This document shows, one piece after another, positions 1,851 through 31,394 of a stretch of 48,765 bases of DNA. A program made the translations under genes and the position numbers. The notes beneath the pieces were generated by a model, which was not told the DNA's origin, searched no databases, and saw only the letters and a program-made list of their open reading frames with translations. Source of the DNA: Chloroflexota bacterium (GTDB lineage Bacteria > Chloroflexota > Dehalococcoidia > Lucifugimonadales > G022566795); the NCBI GenBank assembly GCA_022566795.1, contig JADFIF010000005.1, forward strand, positions 1 through 48,765, in the 5' to 3' direction. Position 1 is the first letter of the stretch; the number at the start of each line of letters is the position of its first letter.

Positions 1851-1938
1851 GCTTATGCCAGGGGAGCCGAAGACATCAGGCGAAGAGTGGGGCAGATATG
1901 CACCGACCCGCCGGCACTGGGTAGTGACCTTAGGGGCA

Positions 1939-4227
1939 CTAGGGCCGAGGGCCTTGTTGCTCAGGCCTTGGACCGCCTGAACCGCCGCGTCTCGGGCCTC
2001 GCGATCGGTAGCCGCCGCGGTCTCCGCCGGGCCGGTCGCGAGACTGGGGAGGCCTGCCGTCGGTCGGACGGCCTCCACCCCGGTACCCGCCCTGCTGGCT
2101 TGAGGACTCGGTGGGCGGCCCGGAGGCGCCATCGCCGGGGGCAGAGTCGCCGTCTCCTTGAAGCAGCGCGCGGCGCGACAGCTTGACCCGCCCGGTAGGG
2201 TCGACATCTATGACGATGACCGTAATGTCCTCGCCCAGCTGAACGACGTCCTCAACGGTGGGGACGCGGTAGTCGGCGAGCTCGCTGATGTGGACCATCC
2301 CGTCCTTGCCTGGCCGAAGCTGAACGAAGGCGCCGAATGGCGCGATCTTCACCACTTTACCCGTGTAGATTTCACCGACCTTAATGTCTTTGGTTAGGTC
2401 CTCGATCATGGTGACGGCTCTGGCCGCGGCCACCGAATCCGACGAGCCTATGGTCACTGTGCCATCGTCGGCGACATCCACGGTGGCTTTGGTCTCCTCG
2501 ACGATGGCTCGAATGGTCTTGCCGCCCGGGCCTATGACTATTCCAATCTTGTCGACCGGTATCTTGATGCGCGTCATACGTGGCGCGTAGGGGCTGAGGT
2601 CCGCGCGGGCCTCGCTGATCGTCTCCTCGATGCGGTCCAGAAGGAACAGCCTGGCCTCCTTGGCCTGTTCCAGAGCATCGCGGATGACGTCGAAGCCGAT
2701 GTTCTTGACCTTCATGTCGAGCTGGATGGCGGTGATGCCGTCTCTGGAACCGGCCACCTTGAAGTCCATGTCGCCGATGTGGTCTTCCAGGCCCTGGATG
2801 TCCGTCAGAGTGGCGTATTGCCCGTTCTCGCCCACCACGAGGCCGACCGAGATGCCGGCGATGGGCTTCTTGATGGGCACGCCGGCGTCCATCAGCGCCA
2901 GGGTTCCGGCGCACACCGTGGCCATCGACGTGCTGCCATTGGAGCCGAGGACCTCGGAGACGAGACGAATGGTGTACGGAAAATCCTCCTCAGAGGGCAG
3001 TACGGCGGTTAGCGCACGCTCGGCCAGCGCGCCGTGCCCGATCTCTCTTCGTCCCGGCGAGCCGACTCGCCGCACCTCGCCGACGGAGTAGGGCGGGAAG
3101 TTGTAGTGGAGCAGGAACCGCTTGGAGTCTTGGGGACTCAGATTGTCGAGCCTTTGAGCGTCCCCCACGGAGCCCAGGGTGACGACCCCGAGCACCTGGG
3201 TCTCGCCTCGGTTGAACAGACCGGTGCCGTGGGTGCGCGGAAGGAGCGACACCTCGCAGGAGATGGGTCTGATGTCGCGCAAGCCTCGGCCGTCGGGCCG
3301 CGGGCCCCCGCTCAGGACCTTAGTGCGGAACTCCTTTTCGAGAAGGCTGTCGAAGGCATCCGCTATCTGCGCCGGCTCGAACTCATCTTTGACCGCCTCG
3401 GCAAGCTCAGCCTTGAGAGAGCTCATGCGGTCCGCCTGCTCGGTCTTGCTTAGCGACGCATCGAACGTGGAGGCGATTCTCGCGCCGAGGACGGACGCGG
3501 TACGCCGTTCCAGCTCCTCCGAATGGGCCACGGGCGTGAAGCCGATCTTTGGCCTTCCGGCCGACCGGATGAGGTCGTCCTGGAGCTCGATAACGCGCTG
3601 GTTCACGTCCTGAGCTCTCCGAATCCCCTCGAGGACCAGGTCTTCCGAGAGCTCGTTGGCCCCGGCCTCCATCATCAGGACGCCGTCTCGGGTGCCCGCC
3701 ACCACGAGGTCGAGGTCGCTCTCGTCCATCTGCGCGAAGGTCGGGTTCACGACGAACTCGCCGTCTACGTAGCCCATTCGCGTGGCCCCGATGGGCCCCT
3801 CGAAAGGAATGTCCGAGACGGAGAGCGCCGCCGATGCCCCGATGACGGCCAGCACGTCCAGGGTGTTTTCAAGGTCGACGGAGAGGGGAGTGATGATCAC
3901 CTGGACTTCGTTCTTGAAGCCCTTGGGAAACAGCGGCCGGACCGGACGGTCGGTGAGCCGGTCCACCAGAATGGCCTCGGTGCTGGGGCGGCCCTCGCGC
4001 CGGAAGAAGCTTCCCGGTATCTTGCCCCTGGCGTAGAGACGCTCTTCAAACTCGATGGTCAGCGGGAAGAAGTCGATGCCCTCGCGGGGCTTGCTCATCG
4101 TCGCGGTGATCAACAAGACGCAGTCACCGTACCGCAACACGACGGACCCGTTGGCCTGCAACGCCAGCTTGCCGCTTTCCAGCGACAGTGAGCGGGTGCC
4201 AACCTCGCGACTAAACGTAGACAACAT
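1939..4227 (-). CDS. pnp: polyribonucleotide nucleotidyltransferase with Arg/Gly-rich C-terminal tail
   Basis: Two RNase PH domains, KH (IVIGPGGKTIRAIVEE) and S1 (GEIYTGKVVKIAPFGAFVQLRPGKDGMVHISELADYRV) motifs; rpsO lies upstream on the same strand. Confidence 0.97.
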   Translation of the reverse strand: MLSTFSREVGTRSLSLESGKLALQANGSVVLRYGDCVLLITATMSKPREGIDFFPLTIEFEERLYARGKIPGSFFRREGRPSTEAILVDRLTDRPVRPLFPKGFKNEVQVIITPLSVDLENTLDVLAVIGASAALSVSDIPFEGPIGATRMGYVDGEFVVNPTFAQMDESDLDLVVAGTRDGVLMMEAGANELSEDLVLEGIRRAQDVNQRVIELQDDLIRSAGRPKIGFTPVAHSEELERRTASVLGARIASTFDASLSKTEQADRMSSLKAELAEAVKDEFEPAQIADAFDSLLEKEFRTKVLSGGPRPDGRGLRDIRPISCEVSLLPRTHGTGLFNRGETQVLGVVTLGSVGDAQRLDNLSPQDSKRFLLHYNFPPYSVGEVRRVGSPGRREIGHGALAERALTAVLPSEEDFPYTIRLVSEVLGSNGSTSMATVCAGTLALMDAGVPIKKPIAGISVGLVVGENGQYATLTDIQGLEDHIGDMDFKVAGSRDGITAIQLDMKVKNIGFDVIRDALEQAKEARLFLLDRIEETISEARADLSPYAPRMTRIKIPVDKIGIVIGPGGKTIRAIVEETKATVDVADDGTVTIGSSDSVAAARAVTMIEDLTKDIKVGEIYTGKVVKIAPFGAFVQLRPGKDGMVHISELADYRVPTVEDVVQLGEDITVIVIDVDPTGRVKLSRRALLQGDGDSAPGDGASGPPTESSSQQGGYRGGGRPTDGRPPQSRDRPGGDRGGYRSRGPRRGGSGGPRPEQQGPRP

Positions 4228-4260
4228 GTGACCTGATACCTCCTAAGGGGAACCCAATAG

Positions 4261-4291
4261 AAAAACGATAGCCCGAGCCTTCGGGACTATC
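4261..4291 (-). terminator. hairpin + T-tract between rpsO and pnp (attenuator/terminator candidate)
   Basis: Minus strand: gatagtcccgaaggctcgggctatcgttttt; stem overlaps the rpsO stop codon (4287-4289) and is followed by a T-run. Confidence 0.6.
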
Positions 4292-4653: not shown

Positions 4654-5745
4654 CTAATCGATGGCGGGCAGCTCCTCCGCCGAGTAGTGCGTGGCACGGA
4701 ACACCGCATTGCTCGGCTCGCCCTCCGGACCCTCCGGGAAGTAAGGGTTGATGTACTCCCACACGACTTTGCCTCCGGGAGTTACCTGAAACATCCGCCC
4801 GAAGTTGCCTTCGGTGATCAGCGTGTTCCCGTTCGGCAACCGGCGCGCCCCGGAAATATAGGGGCTGAAGAAGTTGAACGGCGGGGAGTCGGCGTACTGC
4901 CAAACGATCTCGTCTGTGTGAGGGTCGACCTCGATAACGCGCGAGGCCGGCATGGCCCACTCTTTTCGATGGGCTCCGTTGTCGAAGATCAGCACGTTGC
5001 CGTTGGCGAGGAGGGTCGGGTCGTGCTGCTGAGATAGGGTTTCGTAACCCAGCTTCCACGTAAAGTCGCCGCTCTTCTTGTCGACAATCCCCACCGTGGA
5101 GATGTTGCGGAAGGAGACCATGAACCTATCGCCATCCAACGGGACCACCGTGTTGGCGTGAGTCCACTCGTGGCGAGGGTCGTTGAAGGTAATCCTGTCC
5201 GTCGCGAAGTCAAGGTGGTGAGCGGCGTGCCACTCCCAGACCCGATTGCCTGCGGCATCGACCTCGACGATGACGTCGGCCCACATCACATCTACATCAC
5301 TCTCCGCGATTCCGCCCCGTACCCGGCGCGCCACATCGGCCGATAGGCGCTCCACGGCGAGGTAAATCGCACCGCCGGCGGGCGTCCGCCTGGCGTCGTG
5401 GTGGTGCTCAGGGTCACGGTGCTCCCACAGGATCCGCCCATTCCAGTCGGCCTCGAGCATGACGCCGCCTTTGAAGCGGTTCCACAAGCCGAAGCGGTCC
5501 CAAGTCTCGTCCTTGAGCTTCCCTCCGTAGAACAGATTCCCGTTGGGAAGCAGATAGCCCCACAGCCCAGGAGGGTACGGCATGTCCCAGCGGTGGACCT
5601 CGTTTCCCTGCAGGTCGATCAACAACACCTCGCCGCTTCCGTAAAGCGGAGCGTAAAGCGTATATCCGGGGCACGCTAACTCCTCATCCAGGGCCGTTAA
5701 CCCGGTGCGCACGATACGTCTGCGGGTCTGCTGGTCTACAGCCAT
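4654..5745 (-). CDS. arylsulfotransferase (ASST)-family protein
   Basis: Beta-propeller-like repeats (DLQGNEVHRWDMPYPPG, LLPNGNLFYGGK, WEHRDPEHHHDARRT, RRLPNGNTLITEGNFGRMFQVTPGGKVVWEY) typical of ASST/PQQ-like enzymes. Confidence 0.75.
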   Translation of the reverse strand: MAVDQQTRRRIVRTGLTALDEELACPGYTLYAPLYGSGEVLLIDLQGNEVHRWDMPYPPGLWGYLLPNGNLFYGGKLKDETWDRFGLWNRFKGGVMLEADWNGRILWEHRDPEHHHDARRTPAGGAIYLAVERLSADVARRVRGGIAESDVDVMWADVIVEVDAAGNRVWEWHAAHHLDFATDRITFNDPRHEWTHANTVVPLDGDRFMVSFRNISTVGIVDKKSGDFTWKLGYETLSQQHDPTLLANGNVLIFDNGAHRKEWAMPASRVIEVDPHTDEIVWQYADSPPFNFFSPYISGARRLPNGNTLITEGNFGRMFQVTPGGKVVWEYINPYFPEGPEGEPSNAVFRATHYSAEELPAID

Positions 5746-5861
5746 AGGAGAGGCTCCTTTGCTTTGTGGGGGAGCTCCAGCGCAAAGAGGACGATTAACT
5801 CCCCTTTTGAAGCGGGACGGCTAGAGACGGCGTGAAACCTGAGCCCACCTAAGCGGGCGCC

Positions 5862-6851
5862 CTAGCGAAGCCCTTCCAGAAACTCCGTGACGGCCCGTTC
5901 GAACCCTGCCGGATTGTCGCCCATCACCAGGTGCCCGGCTCCGGGCACCGTGACCAGGGTCGCATTGGGAATCCGGGTCTGCATCTCTTTGGCGGTGTCC
6001 ATCGCGATGATGTCGCTAATCTCGCCCCTGACCACCAGCGTGGGGCAACGCAGGCTTTCGACGAACCCCCACAGGCGCTCGGTGGTGTCCGGGCCGGACC
6101 CGATGCGTCGGTCGGGGGACCTGAGCCGCTTGTCGTACTTCCAGGTCCACCTGCCGTTGGGCAGCTGCTTCAGGTTGTGGATGATGCTGCCCCTTATCTG
6201 CTCCGGGTCGCGGCGGGGGTTGTACTCGCGCACGCGCTCGACGAACTCCTCGACCGAGTCGAGCTCGTCGCTTTGCTGGACGAACCGCCGGATGTTTTCC
6301 GAGCCGGTCCGCAGGTTCTGTGGCCCGGCGTCTACGATTACCAGCGCCTTGACCCTGTCGGGATTAGCGGCGGCGTAGGTCAAGGAGTTGCGGCCGCCCA
6401 TGGACAGCCCCATGAGCACAAACTGCTTGAGGCCCAGCCCGTCGACGATGGCGCCGATGTCGCCCTGCTGCGTCTCCGGCGCGTAGTCGCCGTCCTCCGC
6501 CCAATCGCTGTCGCCATGTCCCCTCTGGTCGAGCGCGATGACCCGGTATCGATCGCAAAGCGACAGCGCCACGAAGTCCCACGAGTGGCAGGTCTGCGCG
6601 AAGCCGTGCAGCAGCACGATGGGCGGGCTATGCGGGTCTCCCCACTCAAGGTAGTGGAACCTCATGCCGTTGGCGTCGATGAACCTGTCTCGCGGTGCCG
6701 CCTCGCTGGCGAAGGTGACGCCCTTGGCGCGGGCGGCGTCGTAAAGCGAGAGTCCCTGGCCGCTGGTCTTAGATGTCAATATGCCATCTCCCAAAAATCG
6801 TCTGAAACTCAGCGCGCGGCCCAATCGACTGGACCGTAGTCTCCCTAGCAC
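5862..6851 (-). CDS. alpha/beta hydrolase
   Basis: IVLLHGFAQTCHSWD, ALDQRGHGDSDW, VLMGLSMGGRNSL (nucleophile elbow GLSMGG), GAGHLV. True start may lie inside the ORF. Confidence 0.88.
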   Translation of the reverse strand: MLGRLRSSRLGRALSFRRFLGDGILTSKTSGQGLSLYDAARAKGVTFASEAAPRDRFIDANGMRFHYLEWGDPHSPPIVLLHGFAQTCHSWDFVALSLCDRYRVIALDQRGHGDSDWAEDGDYAPETQQGDIGAIVDGLGLKQFVLMGLSMGGRNSLTYAAANPDRVKALVIVDAGPQNLRTGSENIRRFVQQSDELDSVEEFVERVREYNPRRDPEQIRGSIIHNLKQLPNGRWTWKYDKRLRSPDRRIGSGPDTTERLWGFVESLRCPTLVVRGEISDIIAMDTAKEMQTRIPNATLVTVPGAGHLVMGDNPAGFERAVTEFLEGLR

Positions 6852-24459: not shown

Positions 24460-25347
24460 CTACACGAAAAGCGCGGCCAGCGTCGCCGCCAGCATTGTCG
24501 TCGAGACGTACGCGTTGATTCGACCGAATGACCTGTCGAGCCGCGAGAGGTCGGTAGGGGAGATGAGGCGGTGCTTGTAGACCAACAGCCCGGTGGCGAC
24601 GGCCAGCCCGAGGAAGTAGGGGAAGGCCAGCTCCATCCAGAGGCCGAGGGATAGCATGCATACCATGGCCAGTGCGTCCAGAGCCCGCGCCCACCGGAAC
24701 GCCCCGGCGATGCCGAACCTGCGCGCGACGGAGTGGTACCCCTCGCGCCGGTGAAATTCGTAGTCTTGCGTGTGGTACAGGATATCGAAGCTCCCGGCCC
24801 ACAGGGCGACAGAAAGGGAAAGCAGCACGGGCTGCCACTGGAGCCGGCCGGTGACTCCTATCCAGGCCGCCGAGGGCGATATGGCCAGCGCCCAGCCCAG
24901 GAGGAGGTTGGCGGTCCACGTGAAGCGCTTGGTTAGCGGGTAGAGCACGAGGTAAGCCACAGCCACCGGCGCCAGGGCCAGCGCCAGCGAGTTCAGCTGC
25001 GCCGCGGCGAAGATGAAGATGCCGAGGGATGCCAGCGCAAACGCGGCCAGCTCGCCGACCTTCAGGCGGCCACTGGGCAGGTGCCTGCCGGCGGAGCGAG
25101 GGTTGCGCGCGTCGATGTGCCGGTCGATGATCCGGTTGGCCGACATGCCAACGGTGCGGGCGCTTACCATGGCGACGGTGATCCAGGCGAACTGGTGCCA
25201 CGTGGGCAGTCCGTCCGCCGCGAGCACCATCCCGATGTAGGCGAAGGGCAGCGCGAAGATGCTCTCATGAAAGGTGATGGCCCCCAGGAACATCGCGCTC
25301 TTGTGGACGACCGGGGTCGATGTTCTTGTCGCGGTCAGAGTCCGTAC
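24460..25347 (-). CDS. UbiA family prenyltransferase (MqnP/UbiA-like)
   Basis: NRIIDRHIDARNPRSAGRHLPSG (NRxxDxxxDxxNPR) and DILYHTQDYEFHRREGYHSVARRFG (DxxYxxQDxxFDxxxG-like); probable GTG start near 25347, ORF extends to 25410. Confidence 0.88.
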   Translation of the reverse strand, partial: VRTLTATRTSTPVVHKSAMFLGAITFHESIFALPFAYIGMVLAADGLPTWHQFAWITVAMVSARTVGMSANRIIDRHIDARNPRSAGRHLPSGRLKVGELAAFALASLGIFIFAAAQLNSLALALAPVAVAYLVLYPLTKRFTWTANLLLGWALAISPSAAWIGVTGRLQWQPVLLSLSVALWAGSFDILYHTQDYEFHRREGYHSVARRFGIAGAFRWARALDALAMVCMLSLGLWMELAFPYFLGLAVATGLLVYKHRLISPTDLSRLDRSFGRINAYVSTTMLAATLAALFV

Positions 25348-26789
25348 TCCCGCCACCTGCCGTCGACCAGGCGTTTGATCTCGTCGCTCATCACGATGTC
25401 CGGGGGCCACTCACGGAGGCGTCCGTCGGCCCGTCCCTTGGCGGTGGCGTCGATCCCCATCTTGCTGCCGTACTTCGGCACCGCCGTGGCGTGGTCGAGG
25501 TCGTCGATGGGGCCCTGCGCGAAGACGATATCGTTGGCCGGGTCGATATTGTTGGTGACCCTCCAGGCGACCTCCGAGAGGTTCTGTACGTCCACGAAGT
25601 GGTCGACGATCACGATGGTCTTGGCGAGCATCAGCAGCCCCAGGCCCCACATGGCGTGCATGACCTTCTGGGGATGGCCTGGGAACTCCTTCTTGACGGA
25701 GACCAAGACGAGGTTGTGAAAGATGCCCTCCGCGGGCATGTTCATGTCCACGACCTCCGGCAGCGTCATTTGAAGCGCGGGGAGCATCATGCGCTCGACG
25801 GCCTTCCCCATGAAGAAGTCTTCTGTCGGCGGCCTCCCGACGATCGTCGTCGGGTAGATGGGCTGCTGTCTGTGGGTGATGGCCGTCAGGTGAAAGACGG
25901 GATACTCCTCCGGCGGCGAGTAGTAGCCCGTATGATCGCCGAAAGGCCCCTCGGGACGAAGCTCCCCCGGGACCACGTAGCCCTCCAGCACGAACTCGGC
26001 ATGGGCCGGCGCCTCGAGGTCGATGGTCTGGCACCTGACCATCTCGACGGCCTCCTCCCGCACGAATCCGGCCGCCGCGATCTCGTCCATGTCGGGCGGC
26101 AGGGGCAGCGCGCCCGTCCACATCGTCGCCGGGTCGCCGCCAAGCGCCACCGCGACGTCCAGACGCTCGAGCCGCTGCTCCTCTCCCAGCCTGTAGTGGT
26201 GCGCGCCCACTTTGTGGGTCTGCCAGTGCATGCCCGCCGTGTGCGAGTCGTAGATCTGCATGCGGTAGATCCCGACGTTGCGCCTGCCGGAGACCGGGTC
26301 GCGGCTGATAACCAGCGGCAGCGTAATGAACCTCCCGCCGTCCATCGGCCAGCACTTGAGCGCCGGCAGCATGTTGAGGTCCGCGTCCGCGCCCTTGAGT
26401 ACGACATCCTGGCATGGCCCGCGGCCCACCGTCTTTGGCTGCGTTCTGGCCACTCCGACGAGGTCTCCGAGGGTGCGCACCTTGTTTATCAGTCCGGAGG
26501 GCGGAGCCTGTACCAAGCTGAGCAGCTTGCGGACCCTGTCGGCGAGCTCGTCGATGTGCTCGACCCCCAGGGCCCACGCCATCCGCTGATGGGTGCCGAA
26601 GAGGTTGATCGCGATGGGGGTTTCGTAGCCGCTGACGTTCTCGAAGAGTAGCGCGGGTCCGCCTGACTTGACGGTCCGGTCCGCGATCTCGGTGATCTCC
26701 AGATCGCGGCTCACGGACGACTTGATCCGGAGAAGCTGGCCTTTTTCGTCAAGGAAGGCTATGAAGCCGCGGAGGTCTCTGAACTTCAT
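25335..26789 (-). CDS. UbiD family decarboxylase
   Basis: MKFRDLRGFIAFLDEKGQLLRIKSSVSRDLEITEIADRTVKSGGPALLFENVSGYETPIAINLFGT...ELRPEGPFGDHTGYYSPPEEYPVFHLTAITHRQQPIYPTTIVGRPPTEDFFMGKAVERMMLPALQM. Confidence 0.94.
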   Translation of the reverse strand: MKFRDLRGFIAFLDEKGQLLRIKSSVSRDLEITEIADRTVKSGGPALLFENVSGYETPIAINLFGTHQRMAWALGVEHIDELADRVRKLLSLVQAPPSGLINKVRTLGDLVGVARTQPKTVGRGPCQDVVLKGADADLNMLPALKCWPMDGGRFITLPLVISRDPVSGRRNVGIYRMQIYDSHTAGMHWQTHKVGAHHYRLGEEQRLERLDVAVALGGDPATMWTGALPLPPDMDEIAAAGFVREEAVEMVRCQTIDLEAPAHAEFVLEGYVVPGELRPEGPFGDHTGYYSPPEEYPVFHLTAITHRQQPIYPTTIVGRPPTEDFFMGKAVERMMLPALQMTLPEVVDMNMPAEGIFHNLVLVSVKKEFPGHPQKVMHAMWGLGLLMLAKTIVIVDHFVDVQNLSEVAWRVTNNIDPANDIVFAQGPIDDLDHATAVPKYGSKMGIDATAKGRADGRLREWPPDIVMSDEIKRLVDGRWREYGL

Positions 26790-27937
26790 GCTGTTCCCTT
26801 GCTGGCAGAACCGCGCAGCTCGGTCGAGGAGATGTCGTGCCGGAAGGCGCTCTCAGGTATGGAGCGAAACATCCGCCCAAACCCGGCCGGGACCGCGACA
26901 TCGTCGACGGTGTGGAACTGCACTCCGTCCGCGCGGCCGGCGACGAGAAACGAGCATCCCAGACCGCGCATCTCTTCCAGCGCCAAAAGCATCTGCGTGC
27001 TGCTGCCGTGGTAGTACTTGGGGTCCACGAGTCGCGCCATCGTGTCCCACCCTACCACGAATGTGCAGCCTGGAAAGAGCCTGGCCTTCTCGAAGAAGAC
27101 CGGCGCCCGCGTCAGCACCAAACGTTCATTGCCCCTGAGCTGGCTCGCCCTGGCGCGGACCTCGCTTTTGGCCAGGGGTGGCTTGTCGACGTTCGTGACC
27201 GATAGCTCGAAGGTGACATCGACGCCGAGTATCTTCGATGCCGCGTCTGCAAGCTGCCTGTGGCCCTCGTGCAGCGGGTCGAAGGACCCCGCCAGCACGG
27301 CGCCGGGCACGGGCTCATCAGCGGCCACCCTCCCGTCTCCCTCAAGCGTTGCCGTCGAGATGTGGCCCGCGATAAGCGCCTCGACGCCGTCTATGTAGGA
27401 GACGCGACAGACTTCGACGCGCTCGTCGTGCCCTAGCTCGAGCGGCAGGTCGAAGCTAATGCCGCTGGTCTCCGCGAGCGCGCGCATCACCAGCAGGCTG
27501 ACGACGCGGTCCTCGCCGGCGCGGTCTCGCAATCCCTTGGTCAGCGTCAGGCTATACGTCGTCGCCCCGGTCGCGTCCCAGGCGCAAACGTAGCATCTGT
27601 GGTCCCCGCGCTTTGGACGGTCGGAGGCGATGGCCGCGGTGGACGCTACCCCCGCCACGTGCTCGTTGCCGGGCCTCAGCCGCACCGCTCGGCGATAGGC
27701 TAGCCGGGCCATCTGCTCAGCCGTCTCCGCGCTGACGAGCTGCGCGGGCTCGTGTCCCAGATATTCGACGAGCGAGGCCGAGGCATACGGGACGAGGATT
27801 TCCAGGACGGTCCGGGAGGCCCCGGGCACCTGGAGCAGCCACGAGGTCGATTGGGTTCCCGCCCCGGCCACGACTATGACCGCCATCGTGCCGCAGGCGT
27901 GGAGTTTCTCCGTCAGCCTGTTGATTTCCGCGTCCAT
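26786..27937 (-). CDS. fusion: CinA C-terminal/PncC-like domain + NMN-adenylyltransferase-like nucleotidyltransferase
   Basis: N-term AGAGTQSTSWLLQVPGASRTVLEILVPYASASLVEYLG...VAGVASTAAIASDRPKRGDHRCYVCAWD; C-term VLAGSFDPLHEGHRQLADAAS (HxGH) and ISSTELR. ORF extends to 27958. Confidence 0.8.
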   Translation of the reverse strand: MDAEINRLTEKLHACGTMAVIVVAGAGTQSTSWLLQVPGASRTVLEILVPYASASLVEYLGHEPAQLVSAETAEQMARLAYRRAVRLRPGNEHVAGVASTAAIASDRPKRGDHRCYVCAWDATGATTYSLTLTKGLRDRAGEDRVVSLLVMRALAETSGISFDLPLELGHDERVEVCRVSYIDGVEALIAGHISTATLEGDGRVAADEPVPGAVLAGSFDPLHEGHRQLADAASKILGVDVTFELSVTNVDKPPLAKSEVRARASQLRGNERLVLTRAPVFFEKARLFPGCTFVVGWDTMARLVDPKYYHGSSTQMLLALEEMRGLGCSFLVAGRADGVQFHTVDDVAVPAGFGRMFRSIPESAFRHDISSTELRGSASKGTA

Positions 27938-27971
27938 GAGTACCCTCACCGAATGCACGCGACGGCGCGCT

Positions 27972-27986
27972 CAACTACTATAGTTG
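27972..27986. promoter_or_regulatory. palindrome caacta-cta-tagttg in a divergent intergenic region
   Basis: Perfect 6-bp arms; minus strand reads ttgcac-18 nt-tatagt, a plausible promoter for the 26786-27937 gene. Confidence 0.35.
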
Positions 27987-28118
27987 TGGGAGAGGATATC
28001 GTGCAACCAACGGCGGGGTCGTGGCGACGGCCGATCCCCGGTTGGCTCCGCTGATGGGCCGCCGCGAGGACGGCGGATCAATATCGAACAGGCGTCGGGA
28101 GTAGTCCCGCAATCGCGC

Positions 28119-29696
28119 ATGGCTTTGTTGAGACTCTGCGTCCTGATGTTTCTTGTGGCTGTGGTGGCGGCCTGCGGCGGCGGTGCACCGAGGGGTGGCC
28201 AACCGGCGGGGGGCGAGGTCGTGCCTTCTCGCCTGCCTCGTATTGCACGGATCTCGCCCGCACAGGCTGACCGCTCGCCTGCACAAGAGGAGACTCCCCG
28301 GGCGATGCCTGTGCAGGCGAGCGGCGAGTCCCTTGAGCTTTCCTCGACGTCGGACGCTCCCCCTGGCGGCGCACTGACGATCGCGTATCGCGCGGGTAGC
28401 TTCCTCCCGAAAAGGCTGGAGGCTCCGGCCGGTCAGACAGTGACCTTTGTCAACGAGTCCGACGCACCGATGTGGCCTGCATCCAACATTCACCCCACCC
28501 ACGAGATACTGCCAGGCTTCGACGCCAAGAGTCCGATTGAGCCGGGGGAGTCCTGGACGTTCGTGTTCGAAGAGGTTGGGTTCTGGAGGTACCACAACCA
28601 CCTTTCGCCCTCTGAGAGCGGCATCGTCGTCGCTACGGGCGAGCCCCGGACCGCGAGGGCTGAGCCGCTGCTGATCGACCCCCGCGAGCTGACCTTCGAG
28701 GACGTCGGCGCTGCGTCAGCGCAGGACGTGATTGATCTGTTCCGGGACGACACGCTGCTCAACGCCTTCGTCAAGAGGTATGGCCCCGCCGCTACGGTGC
28801 GCATCCTCTCGGAGAACGCGCACAGCGTCGGCGTCGACTGCCACCAGAGAGCGCACGTGATGGGCAGGCTGGCGTACGAGCAGTTCGGCGCGATCGCATT
28901 CTCGCTGTCGGGTCACGAGTGCCACTCCGGCGGCTACCACGGCGCCACCGAGGCGTTCTTTCGCGACCGCGGGACGTCGCACCTGCAGTCGGATATCGGC
29001 GTGGTCTGTGGCGCCGGCCTGAACGACTTCTTTCGGCACCAGTGCGTCCACGGCATCGGCCACGGGCTGATGGCGTGGACGAGCTACGAGATCTTCGATG
29101 CGCTGGAGCTGTGCGACCTGCTGGGGGCCGTGTCCGATCAGCAGTCGTGCTTCTCCGGCGTGTTCATGGAGAACGTCGGGGGTGGGCTGTCGGGCTCTAT
29201 GGGCCACTTCTCGGAGTTCCTGTCAGACGACCCGCACTTTCCCTGCAACATCCTCGACGACCGGTACGTGGTGCCGTGCTACTTCTTCCAGAGCTCCCGA
29301 ATGATTCAGGTTTTCGGAGGCGATTTCGAGCGGCTGGCCGCAGCGTGCGCCGAGGCGCCTGCCGTCGCCCATGCCGTCTGCTTCGGTAGCATGGGGCGAG
29401 ACGTCGGTGGGGTCACAAGGGGTGACCCCGAGCGCGCGATTCGGCTCTGCTCCCACGCCGAGGACCCGGCGAACCGACTCGATTGCCTGGACGGCGCCGT
29501 CCAGGACTCCTTTTGGGACCCTGCCGGAGCCGACAACGCGTTGGGTTTCTGTCAGACTTTGGAGGGAGACGAGGAAAAACGGCGGTGCTACTCGACGATC
29601 GTGGAAAGGGCGGGCTTCGTCCTCGACGATACACTGGCCCTCGAGGGGTTTTGCGGCAGGGTAGAGGCGGGCTATCGGGACGGCTGCGGATTATGA
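28119..29696 (+). CDS. lipoprotein: cupredoxin-like domain + Cys/His-rich repeat domain of unknown function
   Basis: Lipobox MALLRLCVLMFLVAVVAACGGG; cupredoxin-like region ending VGFWRYHNHLSPSESGIVVATG; C-terminal region with 16 Cys. ATG at 28119 chosen over the 27984 ORF start. Confidence 0.8.
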   Translation: MALLRLCVLMFLVAVVAACGGGAPRGGQPAGGEVVPSRLPRIARISPAQADRSPAQEETPRAMPVQASGESLELSSTSDAPPGGALTIAYRAGSFLPKRLEAPAGQTVTFVNESDAPMWPASNIHPTHEILPGFDAKSPIEPGESWTFVFEEVGFWRYHNHLSPSESGIVVATGEPRTARAEPLLIDPRELTFEDVGAASAQDVIDLFRDDTLLNAFVKRYGPAATVRILSENAHSVGVDCHQRAHVMGRLAYEQFGAIAFSLSGHECHSGGYHGATEAFFRDRGTSHLQSDIGVVCGAGLNDFFRHQCVHGIGHGLMAWTSYEIFDALELCDLLGAVSDQQSCFSGVFMENVGGGLSGSMGHFSEFLSDDPHFPCNILDDRYVVPCYFFQSSRMIQVFGGDFERLAAACAEAPAVAHAVCFGSMGRDVGGVTRGDPERAIRLCSHAEDPANRLDCLDGAVQDSFWDPAGADNALGFCQTLEGDEEKRRCYSTIVERAGFVLDDTLALEGFCGRVEAGYRDGCGL

Positions 29697-29714: not shown

Positions 29715-31394
29715 CTACCTGTTCGATCTTCGTAGGAACGTGTACGACAGGCCGCCGATGATTCCGGCTGCCGCGATGAGGGCGATAAGAATGGCTGAGA
29801 TCGTTGGCCCGCCGGAGTCCTCCTCCTCGCCCGCGCCCACATCCCCCGCCTCCGGCGTAGGCTCCCCGATGACAGGTGCGGGCGTTAAGACGGGTGCCGA
29901 CGCCGCGATCATCGCCTCCACGTCGGCGTGCTGACCTGAGGCTACCGAGATCTGCTCGTCCCCTACCATGATTACGATGGTGTCGGCGTTGGTGGCAGGC
30001 GCGTCGAACGTAACCGCCACGGCGTCGAACGTCAGCTCGTTCCCCCGGCCAATGCTGGCCACGGCTTCTGTACCATCCTCCGCGACGAACATCACCTCGA
30101 CGGAGCCTGCGAGCACCTCGATGGTAACGCTTCCGCAGGTGACGATGATGACGTCACCCGCGTCGAGGGTGATAACAGCGGCGCCCTCGCACACGGTGAC
30201 TGTGGCCGGCTTTCGGCCCCTGGAGGTCACGTCGGCGATGATGAGAACGCCGTCTCTCTCGTCTGCCGCGTCGGTGACGATCAGTACCTGATCGCCTTTG
30301 TCTACGACGACGCCTCTCGTTTTGCCATCGCTAAAATCGTTGGAGTTGGGACCTCCGGTGTCGACGATATCCGCGATGCCGTTACCGTCGCGGTCCGGCG
30401 GCATGACCGCTAGAAACGGAGGAGCTGAGCGTGACGGGGCTGGCGTCGTCGTGGGTGTCGCCCGAGGCGGAGATGGCGTGGCCCGAGGCGGAGATGGTGT
30501 CGCCCGAGGCGGAGATGGCGTGGCCCGAGGCGGCTCCGGAGTCGGCGTCGCGCTTGCTGTCGCTGTGGCGGTGGCGGTCGCGGTTGCCGCCGCGGTGGCG
30601 GTCGGAGTCGGCGTGTTCGTCGGCGTCGGCGTGGGCGTTGGAGTCGGAGTTGGCGTGCTCGTCGGCGTCGGCGTGGGCGTGGCGAAGGAGAAACTTACGA
30701 CCGGGCTTCGAGATTCAGCGCACCCATTGGCATCCACAGCAATAACCACGAGCTGTCCCTGATAGGACCCAGCCGTAGTGGGCGTCCAGTCTACTGTGTA
30801 CGTTATCCTGCCGCCGACTCCGGTGGCCTTGAACTGCCCGCTACCGGTCACTCCCAACCCGGGCAGTGTGCCGCCGCTCAGGAACCCTTGACTGAGCGTG
30901 CCCCCGGGGAGAGTCGATGGGAGCGTATCCCCCGGCAGCGTGCCGGATGGAAGGGCGCCTGAACAGGTCGAGGATGGGAGCGTTCCAGCCGGGAGGGTGC
31001 CCGAGGGAAGAGTTCCTCCTCCAGGCAGTGTGCCGCCGGGAGCTGTCAGATTCACCCACACCACGGTGGCCGATAGCGAGGTGCCGCTGGCGCCCACCGC
31101 CGATATCAGGTTGAAGGTGCCCTGCTCTAGCGGTAGCGCCACGTCGAGGTCTTGAGTGCTAGGCCCCGCCACCACCAGCGCGACCTGGTGGATGAAAACC
31201 TCTTCTCCTTCCGAGAAGTCGACTGTGCCTGTAAACCTCGTGGTCCCTCCGACTGTGTAGGAGCTGGCGTTGGTCGACAGTGCGATGTCGGTGTTGCGGA
31301 CGACCCCCTGTACGACTCCACGGTTCACGAGGATTCCCACGGCGATGAGCACGAGCAGCAGCGCACCGAAGTACAGAAGAGGATTTTTGATCAT
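29715..31394 (-). CDS. membrane-anchored secreted protein: Ig-like region with GTLP repeats, TP-rich linker, FecR-like region, C-terminal TM
   Basis: N-term TM (LLYFGALLLVLIAVGILV), about 10 GTLPxG-type repeats, (TP)n and 4x PPRATPS, DRDGNGIADIVD, ITLDAGDVIIVTCGSVTIEVLAGSVEVMF..., C-term TM ISAILIALIAAAGIIGGLSYTFLRRSNR. Confidence 0.75.
   Translation of the reverse strand: MIKNPLLYFGALLLVLIAVGILVNRGVVQGVVRNTDIALSTNASSYTVGGTTRFTGTVDFSEGEEVFIHQVALVVAGPSTQDLDVALPLEQGTFNLISAVGASGTSLSATVVWVNLTAPGGTLPGGGTLPSGTLPAGTLPSSTCSGALPSGTLPGDTLPSTLPGGTLSQGFLSGGTLPGLGVTGSGQFKATGVGGRITYTVDWTPTTAGSYQGQLVVIAVDANGCAESRSPVVSFSFATPTPTPTSTPTPTPTPTPTPTNTPTPTATAAATATATATATASATPTPEPPRATPSPPRATPSPPRATPSPPRATPTTTPAPSRSAPPFLAVMPPDRDGNGIADIVDTGGPNSNDFSDGKTRGVVVDKGDQVLIVTDAADERDGVLIIADVTSRGRKPATVTVCEGAAVITLDAGDVIIVTCGSVTIEVLAGSVEVMFVAEDGTEAVASIGRGNELTFDAVAVTFDAPATNADTIVIMVGDEQISVASGQHADVEAMIAASAPVLTPAPVIGEPTPEAGDVGAGEEEDSGGPTISAILIALIAAAGIIGGLSYTFLRRSNR
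30455..30540. repeat. 21-bp tandem repeat (about 4 copies) encoding PPRATPS
   Basis: tggcccgaggcggagatggcg units tandem on the + strand; in frame within 29715-31394. Confidence 0.85.

Follow-up and report, generated by a model that had tools for sequence, protein, structure and literature searches.

Several described proteins resemble parts of the lipoprotein examined here, which is encoded within a 48,765-nucleotide stretch of a Chloroflexota genome (the window). Bacillus subtilis YcnJ is a CopC-CopD-YtkA fusion in which YtkA takes the C-terminal slot, and the metal loading of cytochrome c oxidase is the task of a YtkA paralogue (PMC12362106). EfeO joins a cupredoxin to a helical M75 (imelysin) domain (PMC9174327), and the Sel1-like Hcp proteins of Helicobacter are exported solenoids of helical hairpins, in which disulfides link the end of each repeat with the beginning of the one that follows (PMC3851747). 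The closest solved relative of our N-terminal domain is the purple cupredoxin of Nitrosopumilus maritimus (5fc9), and deoxyhypusine hydroxylase, a HEAT-repeat di-iron enzyme, carries metal ligands on successive helices of its repeat. Literature searches on the motifs of the helical domain, on CopC/CopD and on Patescibacteria with cupredoxin found no description of this domain, and the papers returned for motif strings were unrelated by title.

Each of these likenesses is partial. As in YcnJ, the helical domain of some relatives forms a C-terminal extracellular module on a CopC-CopD protein, with a proposed role as copper chaperone or acceptor; the comparison with YtkA is one of position and proposed role, our module is a disulfide-stapled helical solenoid, and a Pfam search found neither CopC nor CopD in the window protein itself (both occur among relatives L067-L070 and L094). 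As in EfeO, an N-terminal cupredoxin-like domain precedes an all-helical, His/Glu-bearing extracytoplasmic domain. However, neither the window protein nor the family members matched M75 in Pfam, the helical parts do not share a fold because their overlap is poor (TM 0.15-0.22, rmsd 23 A), and our domain differs further in its many disulfides, in an HGATE motif (H77-xxx-E81) in place of HXXE, and in having copper rather than iron partners. The resemblance to Hcp concerns architecture only, namely an exported helical-hairpin solenoid of approximately 36-residue units with regular disulfides; in contrast to the inter-repeat disulfides of Hcp our Cys pairs sit inside one hairpin, an invariant His cluster is present, and we found no Sel1 match and no Foldseek match at E <= 0.001. 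Deoxyhypusine hydroxylase, which is intracellular and uses iron, offers an analogy alone, with no relationship in sequence or fold (TM 0.31).

Domain layout and predicted fold

The reading frame is open over 27984-29696 (+), and directly after the likely start ATG at 28119 it encodes a lipoprotein signal with its lipobox region, MALLRLCVLMFLVAVVAAC, as read from the sequence. The mature protein runs from a linker through a cupredoxin-like domain to a helical Cys-rich domain, and relatives have a lipobox or another type of signal peptide in the corresponding position, which agrees with the original prediction of a secreted lipoprotein whose Cys-rich domain follows a cupredoxin. That prediction had placed the domain at 29007-29693, where every segment it quoted was found; the true start lies upstream, near 28740, and the whole domain holds 16 Cys. 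The main features are:

28119..29696 (+), lipoprotein gene: signal peptide, cupredoxin-like domain and helical Cys/His domain (open reading frame; lipoboxes in relatives)
28119..28178 (+), lipoprotein signal peptide, lipobox VVAAC (VVAAC/GGG; read directly from the sequence)
28371..28640 (+), cupredoxin-like beta-sandwich without Cys, with WPAS-x-IHPTH and HxH (PF13473, phmmer, Foldseek, motifs)
28740..29693 (+), disulfide-stapled (predicted) helical hairpin domain of no named family (AlphaFold2, alignments A2 and A3, no Pfam, NCBIfam or PDB match)

Structure prediction with AlphaFold2, based on the window domain and 42 homologues, returned a confident all-helical model (mean pLDDT 93.7, pTM 0.89) in the form of a hairpin solenoid, and the model of the full mature protein (pLDDT 85.3, pTM 0.82) placed a beta-sandwich ahead of the same helices. 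As had been proposed, the helical domain appears to be uncharacterised: queries with the single protein and with 42 family members produced no credible match in Pfam, NCBIfam or the PDB sequences, and Foldseek returned nothing from the PDB at E <= 0.001. Against the PDB and BFVD together, the Foldseek matches listed were generic solenoids alone, with TM up to 0.31. Sel1/TPR repeat profiles had no match in the 42 members at E <= 0.1. Weak Pfam matches (SOR, SCRG1 and others) were scattered over one or two members each and were taken as chance. We also found no DNA-level tandem repeat within the gene, and no CXXCH motifs of the multiheme cytochrome c type in the translation.

For the N-terminal domain, PF13473 was matched at E=0.011, below the cut-off, and phmmer linked the domain to 5fc9 at E=4e-7. 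Foldseek searches with the full model matched cupredoxins at TM 0.7-0.8 by target length, the best being 5fc9 (TM 0.81 by target length), and these matches together with the AlphaFold2 strands at 60-147 identify a Greek-key beta-sandwich. Type 1 His-Cys-His(-Met) copper ligands are absent, the domain being without Cys; unlike 5fc9, it has Asn aligned at the position of the Cys ligand and shows HPTH and HxH motifs that, together with WPAS, are invariant in 11 relatives. From this sequence pattern, the cupredoxin-like domain likely holds a metal site made of His only.

Cysteine pairs and conserved histidines

Residues of the helical domain are numbered from position 28710 (residue 1). Cys occur at 44, 71, 100, 112, 135, 147, 179, 190, 213, 224, 247, 259, 281, 293, 315 and 326, of which the last fourteen make up the seven C-x(10/11)-C units that had been reported, here confirmed at 29007-29687 (11, 11, 10, 10, 11, 11 and 10 intervening residues) and conserved in homologues. 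Across 200,000 composition-preserving shuffles of the 328-residue region, at most six disjoint pairs arose (twice), and never the seven observed. C44 and C71 are two further Cys of the same domain, upstream of the interval first described. Conservation of Cys and His was counted over 59 non-redundant relatives sharing no more than 92% identity, and is summarized with the features below:

28839..28856 (+), CHxxxH motif: C44, H45 (57/57), H49 (59/59) (conservation)
28920..28952 (+), CHSGGYHGATE motif: C71 (co-varies with C44), H77 (59/59), E81 (43/59) (conservation, co-variation)
29007..29063 (+), hairpin 3: C100-C112; CVHGIGH with H114 and H118 (59/59 each) (conservation, co-variation)
29112..29174 (+), hairpin 4: C135-C147; FMEN with M153 (53/59) and E154 (49/59) (conservation, co-variation)
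29244..29279 (+), hairpin 5: C179-C190, both Cys in 58/58
29346..29381 (+), hairpin 6: C213-C224, 52 with both, 5 with neither, 1 with a single Cys
29448..29486 (+), hairpin 7: C247-C259, 56 with both, 1 with neither
29550..29588 (+), hairpin 8: C281-C293, both Cys in 53/53
29652..29687 (+), C-terminal unit: C315-C326, both Cys in 33/33 of those aligned there

In the hairpins the two Cys are thus kept or lost together with one exception, and for C100-C112, C135-C147, C179-C190, C281-C293 and C315-C326 both are always present where aligned. The C44-C71 pair is complete in 45 relatives and wholly missing from 12, with no case of a single Cys. An alternative pair, C67-C75, which the window protein lacks, is complete in 24, missing from 35 and again never single, and it is present in every relative without C44-C71. 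On the tree these patterns require at least 5 changes for C44-C71, at least 9 for C67-C75 and at least 2 for C213-C224. A phylogenetic sign test alone did not reach significance, since well-supported branches carried only 1 and 4 independent pairs; all independent pairs point the same way.

In the AlphaFold2 model, each pair opens with a Cys that ends a short helix, and its second Cys lies early in the long helix that follows. Co-variation and model together suggest that the Cys pairs form disulfides rather than metal ligands, since in almost every case the two Cys of a pair are retained or lost jointly; eight disulfides would take up all 16 Cys of the domain in the window protein, leaving none for metal. 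The earlier proposal of one disulfide per helical hairpin is therefore supported by both Cys placement and co-variation, and its alternative, that the Cys bind metal, is not, with half states almost missing from the record of gains and losses. Consistent with disulfides, thioredoxin-like proteins and a CcdA/DsbD-type membrane protein are encoded beside three tandem family genes at L003 (1640-4031). A thioredoxin gene also adjoins the copy at L087.

Five His are invariant where aligned (H45, H49, H77, H114 and H118), although identity within the family drops to about 15-25%, and M153 (90%) and E154 (83%) form a near-invariant Met-Glu. The His motifs CHxxxH, CxSGxxHG and CxHGxGHG belong to the same domain and lie mostly upstream of the interval first described. 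Measured from the Cys of the same helix, H49 lies at +5, H77 and H118 at +6, M153/E154 at +6/+7, H45 at +1 and H114 at +2, so that the His and Met-Glu take comparable places early in the long helices of units 1-4; because of these similar positions, all of them are expected side by side on one face. The five His and the Met-Glu likely form a metal site, mostly upstream of 29007. The suggestion that the domain might bind metal thus stands in part, with the ligands being sought among His mostly outside the original interval and not among the Cys. Two very diverged members, L065 and L096, keep the His motifs with MEN replaced by MDA or HDY, and may form a separate subfamily.

Distribution and copper-related partners

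In a first scan of species genomes, 11 relatives came to light, belonging to Chloroflexota (SAR202, Dehalococcoidia), Patescibacteria and Troglogloeales, and further searches extended the family across Chloroflexota, Patescibacteria, Nitrospirota and others, the phylum names of genome-search matches being inferred from the records used as search centres. The spread is wide but patchy. Relatives were found in 7/59 genomes related to the source genome, with no other match in 301 genomes drawn across its phylum; counts that include the genome used as search centre were 15/287 in a Patescibacterial sample, 8/118 in the phylum of the Troglogloeales genome, and 4/59 and 4/345 in the order and class of CAR2_bin_19, respectively. 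Plasmid records add copies from Kitasatospora and Gemmatirosa. A phage or virus origin was rejected, no relatives being present in viral contigs or phage records.

In a quick tree with long branches, the clade containing the window protein is separate and well supported (SH-aLRT 99), and most of its members have a cupredoxin-like domain ahead of the helical one; support for the CopC-CopD clade is modest (SH-aLRT 93). Patescibacteria also provided tandem arrays of diverged paralogues, with six open reading frames each (L086, 4507-15846, G540:C24; L085, 2288-16016, G543:C1), and a protein with a cupredoxin and two copies of the domain (L039/L052). At L015 (1087-2391, G031:C51), the domain is interrupted by two in-frame stops (TGA and TAA), which reflect either a pseudogene or a sequencing error.

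The metal at the predicted site is probably copper, a reading favoured by the presence of related domains within known copper proteins. CopC was matched above cut-off in L067, L068, L069 and L094, with the helical domain as C-terminal part, and CopD above cut-off in L068 and L069 (at or just under it in L070). In CAR2_bin_19 (L009), a gene for a CopC-CopD-domain protein (1861-4287, the L067 gene) precedes a window-type gene with a cupredoxin domain (4741-6639), and both lie on one strand. L004 has a domain gene without cupredoxin and a matching stand-alone cupredoxin gene two genes downstream, and another stand-alone cupredoxin gene lies inside the tandem array of L085. The Kitasatospora plasmid copy, BEK71442.1 of K. 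purpeofusca pKP058, adjoins a cytochrome c oxidase assembly gene, with CopC and a BlaI/MecI/CopY regulator nearby, and the Gemmatirosa copy has a His/Met-rich N-terminus. The neighbours of the window gene (UbiA, UbiD, cytidylyltransferase, epimerase and TrkH) include no copper genes, no CopC was found in the source genome (85% complete), housekeeping genes surround most of the Patescibacterial and Nitrospirota copies, and relatives share little synteny beyond close ones.

Proposed role and alternative readings

On balance we favour an exported, lipid-anchored protein bearing a new family of extracytoplasmic copper-binding domain, with a chaperone or scavenger function. A chain of short helical hairpins, with one locking disulfide inside each of them and C44-C71 cross-linking the first two units, would give a rigid alpha-solenoid able to last outside the cytoplasm, a step that is strongly supported. 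The five His of the first three long helices and the Met-Glu of the fourth would face one another and probably bind copper, and the cupredoxin-like domain, lacking the type 1 Cys ligand and keeping invariant His motifs, probably also binds or hands over copper. The fusions and the single gene pair suggest that the whole protein may be an extracytoplasmic copper chaperone or scavenger; on the other branch, where the same domain would be the outer C-terminal module of CopC-CopD proteins, it would by analogy with YcnJ/YtkA receive or donate copper outside the membrane. More tentatively, and with odds we place somewhat below even, the family could represent a new class of cuproprotein across several phyla, a disulfide-stapled alpha-solenoid holding at least one copper on five His (and Met/Glu) from successive repeats, which would serve as outer copper donor or acceptor or as a redox enzyme using copper that the His-only cupredoxin supplies.

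That the five-His site instead binds iron or zinc, in EfeO-like iron uptake or in a zinc/iron metalloenzyme with a different substrate, seems unlikely. His plus Glu would suit iron and five His zinc or iron, EfeO shares the order of parts (PMC9174327) and appears (7wgu) among the Foldseek matches listed for the full model, and di-iron deoxyhypusine hydroxylase has the best TM among the listed domain matches; yet the poor overlap with EfeO, the missing M75 match, the copper nature of the partner domains found (CopC, CopD, cupredoxin) and a near-invariant Met, which is more typical of copper, all count against it. We consider it less probable still that the stapled solenoid mainly binds proteins or peptides, like many Sel1-type repeats, with His kept for fold or ligand contacts. 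The tandem paralogues of L085 and L086 would fit surface diversification, and disulfide-bearing hairpin repeats recall Hcp (PMC3851747), but five invariant His at approximately 20% overall identity, with i/i+4 spacing in two helices, are characteristic of a metal or active site, and Sel1/TPR matches are missing from Pfam searches. Metal binding by the Cys pairs themselves, as copper-thiolate storage or zinc knuckles, is very improbable: a Cys-rich domain with regular pair spacing in a copper context might suggest it, whereas the protein is exported and lipidated, the Cys come and go in pairs, and the CcdA and thioredoxin genes beside the L003 copy fit disulfides. Csp-type copper-storage proteins, moreover, are four-helix bundles and not hairpin solenoids.

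Neither Pfam nor NCBIfam, in the releases searched, contains this domain, no solved structure comes close to its fold, and its carriers belong to several phyla; defining it as an extracytoplasmic copper-handling family would therefore name many hypothetical proteins and give them a testable role, including in some Patescibacteria, a group about whose metal supply little is known. The set of invariant His, together with the exchange of one disulfide for an alternative one, would also offer a compact test case for the design of metal sites in helical repeats.

Elsewhere in the window, a UbiA prenyltransferase gene adjoins a UbiD decarboxylase gene (24463-27958, -), and the L002 relative likewise has a UbiD homologue and a cytidylyltransferase-like gene (window counterpart 26789-27958) beside it. 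Downstream, 29715-31394 (-) encodes an apparent membrane-anchored secreted protein without a Pfam match, PT-rich and with repeated PPRATPS stretches, and 42-base tandem repeats lie inside this gene within 30454-30684.
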